Assembly (NCBI GenBank): GCA_949282255.1
Contig: CASDPA010000003.1
Coordinates: forward strand, 62,001 to 126,000
Direction: 5' to 3'
Source: an uncultured Spirochaetales bacterium
GTDB taxonomy: Bacteria > Spirochaetota > Spirochaetia > Sphaerochaetales > Sphaerochaetaceae
Length of the DNA stretch: 64,000 bases
This document shows, piece by piece, positions 6,081 to 13,210 of the stretch. The notes beneath the pieces are model-generated. The model had not been told where the DNA came from. It made no database searches and saw only the letters and a list, made by a program, of their open reading frames with translations. Each line of letters opens with the position of its first letter. Position 1 is the stretch's first letter. The translations under genes and the position numbers were made by a program.

Positions 6081-8726
6081 TCAGAATGGATAATAGAACA
6101 TGATGTTGCAATAGAATCTGAGTATAAATGAGGTCGAAAGTATTGCCAGCATCACAAAGATGGCAAAATAGTCTGCAGCCCTCATCTTGCGGCTCATATA
6201 CCAGGTTCGTTTCTTGCGGTTCTTTCCGAATCCTCTGAGCACCATCGCATTTGATATGGTGTCTATCCTGTCCAAGGAGGAAAGGAGAAGCGGCCCCAGA
6301 ACTTTGGAAACATTCAATATCCTCTTTGCAAGTTTGACATTCTTTGATATGTCAACGCCCCGGGCCATCTGCGCATTCATGATATGCCTGAAATCATCAG
6401 TGATTTCAGGAATGTATCGGAGAGTAAGAGCTACAGCATAACTGATACGGTATGACAGTTTGAGCCTGTTGAGGGACGATGCGAATTCGGAAGGGTGGGT
6501 TGCGAAAACAAACACCAACGCAATAGGGAATATGGTGAAGTACTTCAGACACACTGTAATCAAATATATGAGGGTCTCCAACGACAAGGCATAATGCATG
6601 TCGGGATTTCCCAATATTATTGTCCTGCTTCCGATGTAATAGGATCCCTGGTCTGGTGAGAAAAGGAAAATTGCTAGGGCATTGACGGTTATCATAAACA
6701 GCATGATGCACATCAGCGAGACAAACCGTCTGAATGGAATCTTGGAAAGAAGCATGACTGCAATTGCCAGCGCAAACGATCCAAGAAGCACTCTCAAATC
6801 GAACGTGGTCAGGCAGAGGACCAGCCATACCAAGAGAGAAAGGAATTTAGTGACTCCGTTAAGGCTGTGGATCGGAGAGTCCATTTCTATATAGGACAGA
6901 CCGAAGCCGTATTTCTTCTTTTCCTTATCCTTTTGCCGGCTCTTTTCTCTCTTTTCTTTCTTCTTACTGTTTTCTATGAGCTTAAAGGAAGACTTTTCCG
7001 CCACGTCAAATCTTATTACGTCTTTTTCCGTTTCCCCTTCATCCTCCTTGTGGATAAATGTCCTGATAAAAGAAGGCGCATCGCTTTGCATTGACAGCAT
7101 GCGGCAAAGGGTGTAGAGGCTTGTGACTTTAAGGTTTGCTTTTTTCATCAGATCCTTGTCTGCAAAAACCTGCGAAATCTCGCCGTCCCTGAGCAGATCC
7201 CCATCCGAGATCACTATGGCACGGCCGGTATATTCAAGCGCAAGATGCATGTCATGGGTGACAAAGATTATAGTGATGCCAAGCTTTTTGTTCAAACTCC
7301 CGATGAATTTCATCAGTGCGGTGTAATGTCTGTAGTCCTGTCCCGCTGTCGGCTCATCCAATATCAGCACCTCTGGATCCGAGACAAGGATGGATGCTAT
7401 TGTAACCCTTTTCTTCTGTCCGTAACTTAGTGCGCTGATCGGCCATCTGTAATGCTTGCGCAATCCGCAGAGCTCGAGGGTGGAAAGAACCTTTTTCTTG
7501 ATCTCTTCCTCATTTATGCCTTTCTGTCTTAGGGCGAATGCCACCTCGTCGTATATCAGCGAATGGCTTATCATATGGTTCGGATTTTGCATCACATAGC
7601 CGATCTTGCTGCTTAGATCGGTGATTCCAAGGCCGTCTGTATCCATCCCATCGACGGTTATATTGCCGCTGTCAGGTTTCAAAATGCCTGTCAGAAGCTG
7701 GGCGATGGTGCTTTTGCCAGCTCCGTTCTTTCCAAGCAGTGCACACATTTCCCCTTTTCTTATAGTGAAACTGATGTCCTTAAGCACATCTTTTTGACCA
7801 TCATATGAGAAGAAAACGTTATTAAAGGATATTATCGCATCATTTTCATTTTTATTGTCTCCAATTTTATGGGACTCAAAAAATGATGCCATATCATCCT
7901 TGAATTGATTAACATCCATATCTTCGATAGGACTGAGCTTTCCCTTTGCTTGAGAGAGATTGCAGCCAGCCATCTTAAGTGCACTTATATAAAGAGGCTC
8001 CCGTATTCCGGCTTCTTTGAGAGCATTGCTTCTCAAAAGGGTTTCTGTGTCTGTATTAAGGGTTATTTTCCCGTTTTCAACGAGGACAATTCGATCAACA
8101 GGACAGATCAGCACGTCTTCCAATCTGTGTTCAATGATTATTATCGTCTTTCCTGTTTGGCGGTGCAACCGGTCTATAAGCCTGATGGCAGTCTCTCCCG
8201 TAGCCGGATCGAGATTGGCAAGAGGTTCATCAAAAAGGAGGATATCCACTTCATCGACAAGTACGCCTGCTATGGATACCCTCTGTTTCTGCCCGCCAGA
8301 AAGCTCGTTTGGCGATTGATCAAGATAATCCTGCATCTCCACTAATGCGGTTGTGTCCAAGACCACCTTTTTCATTTTCTCAGTGGGCATGCATTGGTTC
8401 TCAAGGCTGAATGCCACATCCTCGGCGACAGAAAGACCCACGAATTGCCCGTCCGTATCCTGGAAAACCGTACCGACCTTCTGGCTCAGCTCGAAGATGT
8501 CGCTGTCTTTTGTTTCAAGCCCACCGACTTTCAGCGATCCCTCGATCTTTCCTTCCATCGCATGTGGAATCAGTCCGTTTATGGCATTGCCAAGCGTACT
8601 CTTGCCGCTTCCAGACGGTCCGATTATAAGAACCTTTTCCCCATCCTTTATTTCAAGATCTATATGCTGCAGGGTGGGGTTTGCCTGGGATGCGTAGGTG
8701 AAGGAGAAATCGCTGAATCTAATCAT
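6081..8726 (-). CDS. ECF transporter: fused ATPase-ATPase-EcfT protein
   Basis: One 881-aa polypeptide that carries the whole energy-coupling module. First ABC ATPase, residues 1-270: Walker A GPSGSGKST (36-44), signature LSGGQKQR, Walker B ILLFDEPLA. Second ABC ATPase, about 295-555: Walker A GKNGAGKST, signature LSYGQKKR, Walker B VLILDEPTA. A charged lysine-rich linker follows, then an EcfT/CbiQ-type membrane domain (about 640-881) with several hydrophobic helices and the two Ala-Arg-Gly type coupling motifs QMARGVD and MVLRGFG. Two-ATPase fusions (YkoD type) are known; adding EcfT to the same chain is unusual. It starts two bases after the stop of the S-component gene, so it should energise that component. 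Confidence 0.92.
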   Translation of the reverse strand: MIRFSDFSFTYASQANPTLQHIDLEIKDGEKVLIIGPSGSGKSTLGNAINGLIPHAMEGKIEGSLKVGGLETKDSDIFELSQKVGTVFQDTDGQFVGLSVAEDVAFSLENQCMPTEKMKKVVLDTTALVEMQDYLDQSPNELSGGQKQRVSIAGVLVDEVDILLFDEPLANLDPATGETAIRLIDRLHRQTGKTIIIIEHRLEDVLICPVDRIVLVENGKITLNTDTETLLRSNALKEAGIREPLYISALKMAGCNLSQAKGKLSPIEDMDVNQFKDDMASFFESHKIGDNKNENDAIISFNNVFFSYDGQKDVLKDISFTIRKGEMCALLGKNGAGKSTIAQLLTGILKPDSGNITVDGMDTDGLGITDLSSKIGYVMQNPNHMISHSLIYDEVAFALRQKGINEEEIKKKVLSTLELCGLRKHYRWPISALSYGQKKRVTIASILVSDPEVLILDEPTAGQDYRHYTALMKFIGSLNKKLGITIIFVTHDMHLALEYTGRAIVISDGDLLRDGEISQVFADKDLMKKANLKVTSLYTLCRMLSMQSDAPSFIRTFIHKEDEGETEKDVIRFDVAEKSSFKLIENSKKKEKREKSRQKDKEKKKYGFGLSYIEMDSPIHSLNGVTKFLSLLVWLVLCLTTFDLRVLLGSFALAIAVMLLSKIPFRRFVSLMCIMLFMITVNALAIFLFSPDQGSYYIGSRTIILGNPDMHYALSLETLIYLITVCLKYFTIFPIALVFVFATHPSEFASSLNRLKLSYRISYAVALTLRYIPEITDDFRHIMNAQMARGVDISKNVKLAKRILNVSKVLGPLLLSSLDRIDTISNAMVLRGFGKNRKKRTWYMSRKMRAADYFAIFVMLAILSTSFILRFYCNIMFYYPF

Positions 8727-8728
8727 GT

Positions 8729-9295
8729 TCAGTCTTCCAGTTTGAGATTTTGGTTGTTGGCGTTGCGCTTTGCGACGAGAAGCATGAGCGCGGTACCGAT
8801 CGTACCGATCATCACGGTGTTGGAGAAGGCCGCGATAAGCTGTTGCACGATGACCTTGCTGACAGGCTCTGCATACATAACACAGTCTATGATTGCGCTC
8901 ACCATATATCCTAGGAAGTTCGCAACAAAGGAGAGGATGATGAAAATTCCGATTTCTTTTCCCCCGAAAACACCTTTTTCAAGGCTCTTCTTTGTAATGT
9001 ACGGATAAACTCCGATTATGGCTCCTACAAGGCCGCTCCCGAGCACCCATGAAAACCATACGCCCCATCCGGAGATCGTGTCGGTCAGCCAGTGCCCGAT
9101 GAAACCTACGATGAAGCCTACGACAGGTCCAAACATGGCGGCGAAGATTCCGAGTATCGCCATTGCCGGCTTAAGTGTCGTATTTGCAAATACAGGGATC
9201 CCAAAGTATCCGAGTCCGCCATAGAGCGCTGCTCCGATGGCGACGATTACAACCAATTTGACATAATTGATCGATTTCGAGTTCTGATTGCTCAT
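8729..9295 (-). CDS. ECF transporter S component (UPF0397-like)
   Basis: A 188-aa integral membrane protein with about six hydrophobic helices. It resembles the UPF0397 group of ECF substrate-capture components: ALYGGLGYFGIPVF near the N-terminus, then LAMFGP-type sequence FAAMFGPVVGFIVGFIGH and the LTDTISGWGVWFSWVLGSG stretch. An ATG at 9295 is preceded by a strong GGAGG. It lies between the SAM hydrolase gene and the fused ECF module, with gaps of 26 and 2 bases, so all three are almost certainly cotranscribed. Substrate is not visible. Position beside a SAM hydrolase suggests adenosine, methionine, SAM or a related compound (inference). Confidence 0.85.
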   Translation of the reverse strand: MSNQNSKSINYVKLVVIVAIGAALYGGLGYFGIPVFANTTLKPAMAILGIFAAMFGPVVGFIVGFIGHWLTDTISGWGVWFSWVLGSGLVGAIIGVYPYITKKSLEKGVFGGKEIGIFIILSFVANFLGYMVSAIIDCVMYAEPVSKVIVQQLIAAFSNTVMIGTIGTALMLLVAKRNANNQNLKLED

Positions 9296-9321
9296 ATTTC
9301 CTCCAAAATAAGCCCTTAAGC

Positions 9322-10209
9322 TTATTTCTTTTCAAGTTTGATCATCCAGCCTTCACCTGTTCCAATACGATATTCGGTGGAGAAAGAACCTTGGTTGAGG
9401 GCTATTCCGACATTCAACAGGCTGTTGATATAGATGAGAGGTTCCATCTTGCCAACCTCGTTGAAACTTTTACAATATTTCATATCATAGCCGTATACTG
9501 TCATCCCGTTATGAAGGATCGTAACATAAAAGACATCTCCATGCCTTATTCCTTCTTTTTGGAATAACGTATCGGGAATATTTGTCCATAGGCTTCCATA
9601 TCTTGTATCGAGTATGTCTATTGCACCATAGAAGGAGTTTCCGTCCACACGGGCCTCCTCCACATGAAGCATTACAGGTTTTTTTTCGAGCTTCGGTCCA
9701 ACTCCTTCAAAATCTATTATTCCTGCAGCAAGTCTCGCTCCGGTATAGGCATAAACATCCCTGCCATGGAAGGTGTAGCTTCTTTGACTGTTTTTCAACC
9801 TGTTGACTGCTTCACTGATTTCCCTCAGTTCAAGGATACCAACTTCCCGCTCAATATGTGTCAATGTACCGTTGTCAGGGGTGACAACGATGTGCCCGGT
9901 TCTTGTAAGGGCCGCAACGCTTTTCCTGTCGGAGCCTACACCAGGATCGACGACACAAACAAAAATCGTTCCAGGAGCCCAATATGTCATTGCTTGGATG
10001 AGACGATAGGATGCCTCCCAGATGTTGAATTGGGGTATCTCGTGAGTAAGGTCTTCCAGTTTCAAAGAACGATCGACTTCATCAGCCACGCCATGCATGG
10101 CGCTTACAGCTCCATCCACATAACCAAAATCGCTCATGAAGACTACGGTTTTCCTTTCCAACCAAGGACGATGGTCCTTGAGTTCATTCAAAGTATAGTA
10201 TTCAGCCAT
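9322..10209 (-). CDS. SAM hydrolase (SAM hydroxide adenosyltransferase, DUF62)
   Basis: A 295-aa member of the family that cleaves S-adenosylmethionine with water to adenosine and methionine. Seen: MSDFGYVDGAVSAMHGV (about residues 25-41), the Asp and Arg of the catalytic triad in VVDPGVGSDRKSV, PDNGTL, and the triad His in FHGRDVYAYTGARL. The full Asp-Arg-His set argues for the hydrolase rather than a SAM halogenase. It is the first gene of the operon with the ECF S component and the ECF module. No strong Shine-Dalgarno precedes the ATG at 10209. A long non-coding stretch (10210-10478) upstream could hold leader regulation, but no known riboswitch was recognised. Confidence 0.9.
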   Translation of the reverse strand: MAEYYTLNELKDHRPWLERKTVVFMSDFGYVDGAVSAMHGVADEVDRSLKLEDLTHEIPQFNIWEASYRLIQAMTYWAPGTIFVCVVDPGVGSDRKSVAALTRTGHIVVTPDNGTLTHIEREVGILELREISEAVNRLKNSQRSYTFHGRDVYAYTGARLAAGIIDFEGVGPKLEKKPVMLHVEEARVDGNSFYGAIDILDTRYGSLWTNIPDTLFQKEGIRHGDVFYVTILHNGMTVYGYDMKYCKSFNEVGKMEPLIYINSLLNVGIALNQGSFSTEYRIGTGEGWMIKLEKK

Positions 10210-10478
10210 TGTGATCTGCCCACATTATTTCATAATCGGATGAAGTTTGGCTAGTAGTGGTTTCCCATTATGTCATAAGACTAAAGATGATATTCCAAAG
10301 GATTTGAAATCAGGATCTATCAGCAGGATGTTCTGATAAATGTGTAAAAACTGTGCTGAAGCGGTGTGTTCAAATATGTGCATAAGTATACTTTTGTTTT
10401 GTAAACCACTTTCTAAAAACGTATTGAAATTGTAATATCTTTGTGATAACGTATATCAAGCTTTGACAAAGCGTAGAT

Positions 10479-12886: not shown

Positions 12887-13210
12887 ATGAAAAATCAGAA
12901 AAAAGGTTTACTCAGCCTGGCCGATCTCTGGGCACTGGCTGTAGGACAGGTGATTGGGGCTGGGGTGATTACCACGATCGGGCCAGCCATGGGTTTGACA
13001 GGGCCATCAGTATGGCTTGCTTATTTTGCTGCTATAATATTGGGCTTGATAATCAATCTGCCGATAATGGTGTTCTCATCAATCACCAAGTTTTCAGGCG
13101 GGGATTATTCGGTGATCAGCGGGCTGGGAGGCGAGAGGCAGGGCGTGGTGGTGAAGATAGGAAAGGGGGCCTACAGGCTGGTCTGCGTCAATGCTGGGAA
13201 AAAGCCCTGA
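12887..13210 (+). pseudogene. Amino-acid permease (APC family), truncated
   Basis: The first 85 or so residues are a good match in form to APC-superfamily permeases: the start LLSLADLWALAVGQVIGAGV carries the conserved glycine-rich first helix (GQVIGAGVITTIGP), and a second helix and SGGDYSVISGLGGER follow. After about residue 88 the similarity stops and the frame ends at 107 codons, where about 450 is normal. The rest of the gene is missing and its tail overlaps the 3' end of the convergent S41 gene by 23 bases, so a deletion joined the two. A usable ribosome site (AAGGAG) and the divergent LysR gene remain. A functional 107-aa protein is unlikely. Confidence 0.8.

Follow-up and report, generated by a model that had tools for sequence, protein, structure and literature searches.

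The 64,000 nt stretch of the genome of an uncultured Spirochaetales bacterium analysed here (contig CASDPA010000003.1; referred to as a whole as "the window") carries an operon of three minus-strand open reading frames (ORFs), which encode an S-adenosylmethionine (SAM) hydrolase, then the S component of an energy-coupling factor (ECF) transporter, and then an 881 aa protein that joins the two ATPases (A and A') and the EcfT (T) subunit of such a transporter in one chain (AA'T). We propose, tentatively and with slightly less than even confidence, that the operon serves to scavenge methionine through a single pathway, in which a dedicated ECF importer of group I works together with a SAM hydrolase of the cytoplasm. 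The S component would capture SAM from outside the cell, probably with both the (S,S) and the (R,S) epimer present, or else a closely related S-adenosyl compound. The one-chain AA'T motor would carry the bound substrate into the cell, where the hydrolase would cleave it to methionine and adenosine. We infer that the imported substrate is also the substrate of the hydrolase, and that it is SAM.

The support for this pathway consists of the gene set, the fusion, an intact Asp-Arg-His triad in the hydrolase, conserved linkage of enzyme and importer, and leaders that sense methionine (Met) or SAM in related systems; the proposal is well motivated but unproven. Two open questions meet in this operon, the purpose of the DUF62 family of SAM hydrolases, which a 2025 paper calls unsettled (PMC12120602), and the cargo of the methionine-regulated ECF transporter, and together with the Met leaders of its relatives the operon makes both testable at once. 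It is also conceivable, and we hold this with some reserve, that we are dealing with the first ECF transporter for SAM or its (R,S) epimer, with a scavenging route that is widespread in many Bacillota and spirochaetes, and with other bacteria (including many E. coli strains) that split the same compound with an exported hydrolase. The DUF62 family would thereby gain its missing physiological role.

Organisation of the operon and the importer

A preliminary description of this region had given the three ORFs and gaps of 2 and 26 bases. All three ORFs lie at the stated coordinates, on the minus strand, with gaps of 26 bases (hydrolase to S) and 2 bases (S to AA'T) (Table 1). It had further recognised a separate S component, confirmed by PF07155 and NF010182, a SAM hydrolase, and two ATP-binding cassette ATPases plus EcfT in one protein, for which we find TIGR04520 and TIGR04521 above cut-off and a CbiQ/EcfT match. 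Its mention of both Ala-Arg-Gly type motifs is accurate for the first of the two motifs of the EcfT part, ARG, and loose for the second, LRG, both being read from the sequence.

Table 1. Features of the operon in the window (residue numbers refer to the respective protein; pLDDT and pTM are confidence measures of the structure models)
Feature	Position	Strand	Details
Operon leader, up to tRNA	10210..10478	-	no known regulatory RNA
SAM hydrolase (DUF62, SAM hydroxide adenosyltransferase)	9322..10209	-	295 aa, without signal peptide; PF01887 1.8e-46, PF20257 3.3e-18
Triad Asp88 codon	9946..9948	-	aligned chlorinase residue Tyr
Triad Arg95 codon	9925..9927	-	aligned chlorinase residue Thr
Triad His148 codon	9766..9768	-	aligned chlorinase residue Tyr
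ECF S component (UPF0397 type)	8729..9295	-	188 aa; PF07155 2e-37, NF010182 1.5e-56; model pLDDT 91.7
Fused ECF energising module EcfA1-EcfA2-EcfT	6081..8726	-	881 aa; Pfam and NCBIfam matches; model pLDDT 85.2, pTM 0.79
EcfA1 ATPase domain, residues 2-248	7983..8723	-	TIGR04520, 435.7 bits (whole protein), above cut-off
DUF3744 linker, residues 233-306	7809..8030	-	PF12558 1.6e-17
EcfA2 ATPase domain, residues 299-547	7086..7832	-	TIGR04521, 391.2 bits (whole protein), above cut-off; VIA Z 28.6 over 260 residues at 1.8 Å to 8bmp_A
A2-to-T joining stretch, residues 566-608	6903..7031	-	low confidence, pLDDT <50; probably a flexible linker
EcfT transmembrane domain, residues 617-837	6216..6878	-	PF02361 (CbiQ/EcfT) 2.6e-24

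The best fold matches of the S component model are solved ECF S components (4hzu_S, VIA Z 17.1 over 159 residues at 2.8 Å; ThiT 4tkr_A, Z 16.3 over 165 residues at 2.9 Å), while a sequence search of solved structures with this protein returned no significant match. Five hallmark residues (H68, W83, D137, E143 and Q151) are invariant in all 61 S components that were aligned, and the set occurs in none of 17 other PF07155 proteins. The S fold, two EcfA-type ATPases, the EcfT motifs and a module encoded beside its own S component, an adjacency that is kept in relatives, are the marks of a group I ECF transporter and are all present; the operon is thus predicted to encode a dedicated importer of this group, with ATP-driven uptake.

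The model of the AA'T chain consists of the two ATPases, the low-confidence joining stretch and a helical T domain. In the VIA fold comparison of the whole chain the matches are filled by the ATPase domains, so that it says little on T.

Distribution of the fused motor

The relatives examined for the fusion were 40 genomes, that of the window included; 15 of them have the hydrolase, and the loci were fetched for those. Eight genomes (G000, G003, G007, G015, G016, G020, G021 and G023) have the order hydrolase-S-AA'T with a complete fused chain, and a ninth (G006) has the same order on a contig that ends inside T. AA' and T are separate proteins beside the hydrolase in G005, G013, G022 and G027 (the S gene of G013 lying on another contig), and in two genomes (G032 and G038) no ECF genes lie near the hydrolase. 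A tree built from 75 AA' regions places 14 fused proteins and one whose ORF runs off its contig (L089) in a single group (support 100/99), the remaining 60 AA' proteins being separate from T.

We considered an assembly error as the origin of the fusion, a possibility raised in the preliminary description should close relatives have the chain split, and reject it. Within its own clade the chain is not split, and intact ORFs of 871-906 aa occur in the assemblies of other species, among them several sister species. The simplest reading would be one fusion event in spirochaetes, and the AA'T fusion appears restricted to one spirochaete clade among what was examined; outside that clade S, AA' and T are separate proteins. 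Because the S component remains a separate protein, the usual transport cycle should be unaffected by the fusion.

The SAM hydrolase

The hydrolase has both SAM_HAT domains (N and C) and an intact Asp-Arg-His triad (D88, R95 and H148, the residue identities being read from an alignment). A review describes this triad as characteristic of DUF62 hydrolases and as missing from halogenases (PMC10491745); the family splits SAM, and a tested enzyme prefers the (R,S) epimer (PMC10491745, PMC12120602). The protein reaches the cut-off of neither NCBIfam equivalog for (R)-SAM hydrolases (NF058624, 114.4 vs 350 bits; NF053629, 80 vs 470 bits), nor that of the fluorinase family TIGR04507 (75 vs 400 bits), and represents a distinct DUF62 subfamily.

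Among ECF-linked hydrolases the triad His is replaced by Tyr at L058, L060, L062, L085 and L229 and by Phe at L087, L088, L089 and L208. The replacement seems to have occurred more than once, and activity or substrate may differ in these proteins. Hydrolase genes are also duplicated inside ECF operons, with up to six ORFs. The six tandem ORFs of an Erysipelotrichaceae locus (L103:4099-8843) lie behind S-AA'-T; one of them is short (164 aa) and one is without the triad. In G015 a second, divergent tandem hydrolase pair was seen (L067:993-2694), with no ECF genes on the stretch available.

Linkage of hydrolase and importer

The neighbourhood of S component and hydrolase, whose absence elsewhere would have counted against the preliminary description, recurs widely. 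An alignment of the hydrolase was used to scan 84,980 species genomes, and the best 80 of at least 585 loci were kept. In 44 of these 80 loci of the subfamily, no more than 8 kb separates the hydrolase from an S or T gene, the linked cases belonging to Bacillota and Spirochaetota; the commonest other neighbour, a GNAT/GntR-domain protein, is found at 8. Gene order varies among linked loci (hydrolase-S-AA'-T; S-AA'-T-hydrolase(s); hydrolase-AA'-T-hydrolase-S).

Within the phylum, 101 of 392 genomes have the hydrolase. An S match close to it (at least 80 bits, same contig, within 10 kb; counts read by eye from two tables) was found in 17/17 hydrolase-bearing genomes of the family to which the window belongs, in 8/22 from the rest of the class and in 0/62 from outside the class.

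Regulation of related systems

The control of related operons points to methionine. In an Rfam scan of 29 loci with linked hydrolase and ECF genes, a T-box was found directly 5' of the hydrolase in six of the seven Bacillales/Lactobacillales loci (L123, L125, L141, L157, L078 and L079, not L130), and the alignments give AUG (Met) as its specifier in all six. L147 lends support to the rule used to read the specifier, as the columns concerned give UGG in its two unrelated T-boxes. In the Erysipelotrichaceae locus L103, a SAM riboswitch (655-735) ends 45 bases before the S gene at 781. The other linked loci scanned have no T-box or SAM riboswitch near the operon. Of nine unlinked Bacilli loci, four (L094, L127, L142 and L075) have a T-box before the hydrolase; the specifier reads AUG in L075 and L127, and the same reading was obtained by pattern in L074, L094 and L151.

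Because Met T-boxes and a SAM riboswitch precede related units, the importer and hydrolase appear to be a methionine-supply system, and the link to SAM turnover that had been suggested for the operon is strengthened. The pneumococcal gene spd-0431 and its neighbours probably are this importer/hydrolase system. Their expression is up when methionine is absent (PMC5359408).

The metabolite-sensing RNA that had been considered upstream of position 10209 was not found: at the gathering threshold, an Rfam scan of the whole window matched only tRNA (two genes). Comparison of the leader with those of relatives gave no clear common motif, and promoter-like sites are not commoner than in shuffled sequences (11 vs a mean of 9.2).

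Export pattern and metabolic setting

Hydrolases of the main type were classed as exported-looking if a hydrophobic stretch follows the last Met before the domain, a conservative rule. This applies to 17 of 36 unlinked enzymes vs 0 of 46 linked ones at the 80 loci, and to 4 of 16 vs 0 of 21 at the fetched loci of the phylum; inspection by eye would add L106, L216, L220 and L222, which the rule missed. Because SAM is made inside cells, an exported hydrolase would point to an external substrate. E. coli and Aeromonas have exported-looking, stand-alone hydrolases about 50% identical to that of the window (L077:7932-8834 and L076:7938-8846), with N termini that resemble signal peptides; the records name no role for the E. 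coli gene. This gene and its flank beside uvrD were matched in 2381 of 5426 E. coli genomes.

The genome to which the window belongs (96.75% complete) encodes MetK and a binding protein of the MetQ type, and no match was found in it for the PF01717 (MetE) or PF02574 (MetH/homocysteine methyltransferase) domains. The cells probably rely on outside methionine, because MetE and MetH matches are missing from this genome. A coupling of this loss to the presence of the hydrolase was considered and rejected, as the whole genus is without both domains (24/24 genomes searched).

Elsewhere in the window, a plus-strand ORF of 107 aa (12887-13210) is similar to the beginning of an amino acid permease and to no other part of it (PF13520, below cut-off), and is possibly a broken gene.

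Weighing the explanations

Several observations weigh against a single pathway of SAM import and cleavage. No sensor RNA was found in the operon's own leader. The triad His is replaced by Tyr or Phe in 9 of 69 linked hydrolases of the main type, all of them from spirochaetes and some accompanied by the same fused motor. The export pattern is confounded with lineage, as most exported enzymes are from Bacteroidota and most linked ones from Bacillota. The apparent methionine auxotrophy is genus-wide (24/24), and only 12 of those 24 genomes have the hydrolase.

Importer and enzyme also occur apart. Fifteen spirochaete loci (L190-L204), picked because their genomes have no hydrolase match, carry S-AA'-T with no hydrolase nearby; in one of them (L199) A and A' are separate genes and there is no T on the stretch. 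The S components of 11 of these loci are among the 61 aligned proteins, and because they share the invariant residues, their ligand is probably the same as that of the window's importer and need not be split. S-AA'-T without a nearby hydrolase was also seen in Lactobacillus, Cetobacterium and Vibrio records of a plasmid collection. Conversely, among Bacilli in which a cytoplasmic hydrolase is unlinked, none of 12 genomes or records gave a strong S match, and several of them have a Met T-box; the enzyme therefore acts there without this importer. The single Treponema of this kind likewise gave no strong S match.

That the importer always lies elsewhere in the genome when a cytoplasmic hydrolase is unlinked is thus false for the 12 Bacilli and the Treponema, and true for three of three Lachnospiraceae (Clostridia) type genomes, which have a strong S match at a distance. 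Genomes or records with an exported hydrolase have none (0/8). At one of the hydrolase-less loci (L200:4862-6646), a gap of 18 bases separates the end of metK from the S gene, a further tie of this transporter type to SAM.

These separate occurrences suit a different explanation, in which the importer carries a methionine source other than SAM, such as methionine itself, methylthioadenosine or S-methylmethionine. The hydrolase would act independently of it and free methionine from SAM or (R,S)-SAM of the cell itself, the two sharing an operon only as both supply methionine. We regard this as possible but rather doubtful. Met T-boxes are indeed found 5' of cytoplasmic hydrolases without an ECF neighbour, the existing label of the transporter says only "methionine-regulated", and a TCDB-based table has an ECF family "Methionine precursor" with the member MtsU (PMC3654945). 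However, cleavage of its own SAM to obtain methionine would waste the ATP that the cell had spent in making it, the exported relatives of the hydrolase cannot reach the cell's own SAM, and importer and hydrolase directly adjoin in many loci and in several gene orders. It is unlikely that the system serves damage control, with the hydrolase clearing the inactive (R,S) epimer of SAM and the importer replacing the lost methionine or adenosine. The preference of a tested DUF62 enzyme for (R,S)-SAM (PMC10491745, PMC12120602) would agree with such a role, but control by methionine starvation suits supply rather than repair, and the authors of PMC12120602 themselves doubt it.

The preliminary description, which as a whole is partly supported, had named adenosine, methionine or SAM as candidate ligands; SAM or a SAM-like compound would fit best, methionine or another methionine source is possible, and adenosine has the least in its favour. 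If the importer carried adenosine or some other nucleoside and the hydrolase supplied further adenosine, the other product of the enzyme would be accounted for, but no purine riboswitch was found at any scanned locus and the leaders directly 5' of the operon sense methionyl-tRNA or SAM, which makes this reading very improbable. Uptake of riboflavin, after which NCBIfam names the S component (NF010182, 191.2 bits against a cut-off of 99), seems hardly credible, as neither the window nor the scanned loci have a flavin mononucleotide riboswitch, whereas Met and SAM sensors were found.

Comparison with known systems

Within the literature searched and with the terms used, we found no publication that ties DUF62 proteins to ECF transport, though Rodionov 2004, Rodionov 2009 and Eitinger 2011 may contain part of this. 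The importer itself appears to be a variant form of an already annotated transporter, the "methionine-regulated ECF transporter" with MtsA or MtsC components that is named in PMC9423846, PMC5066943 and PMC5408102; the preliminary description does not refer to this annotation. With MtsABC of the streptococcal annotation it shares the S and T components of a methionine-linked ECF transporter, and Bacillota relatives of the window's system share the Met-linked control; it differs in its A and T parts, which make up a single chain here, and in that the window has no Met-sensing RNA. From the gene order given in PMC9423846, we infer that this S component corresponds to the protein called MtsA. In Streptococcus suis, the gene numbered just before that of MtsA (SSUSC84_0348) is labelled "DNA-directed RNA polymerase subunit delta" (PMC9423846). 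Because PDB entry 7ccg, the sequence of which matches the hydrolase studied here, carries the same label, this suggests that the pairing of hydrolase and MtsA exists in S. suis under a wrong name.

The hydrolase resembles the DUF62 (R,S)-SAM hydrolases StDUF62 and PH0463 in having both domains and the triad; it differs in belonging to a distinct subfamily, below both NCBIfam equivalog cut-offs, and in sharing an operon with an importer. In Listeria, the hydrolase gene of locus L075, which is probably lmo2587, has a Met T-box and sits between fdhF and mdrT/brtA. The gene lmo2587 is listed among Met T-box genes as "Met related cytosolic hypothetical" (Table 2 of PMC2494555). Unlike the window, L075 has no ECF genes beside the hydrolase, and the L. 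monocytogenes record W01 gave no strong S match.

A close parallel in gene content is the plasmid operon of Enterococcus faecium (L078 and L079), which has the same parts in the same order, hydrolase-S-AA'-T, but with AA' and T as separate proteins and with a Met T-box in front. On the conjugative plasmid of L079 (2408-7887), mmuM and an amino acid permease gene, which follow a T-box of their own, lie near the operon, together with insertion sequence elements. The A domains of ECF transporters are described in PMC6828968 as homodimers, heterodimers or A1-A2 in one polypeptide, and what that source says on their arrangement does not mention a full AA'T chain. What is new is the motor in one chain, together with the functional reading of importer and hydrolase as a pair; the fixed A:A':T ratio also makes the motor convenient for single-molecule and structural studies of ECF transport.

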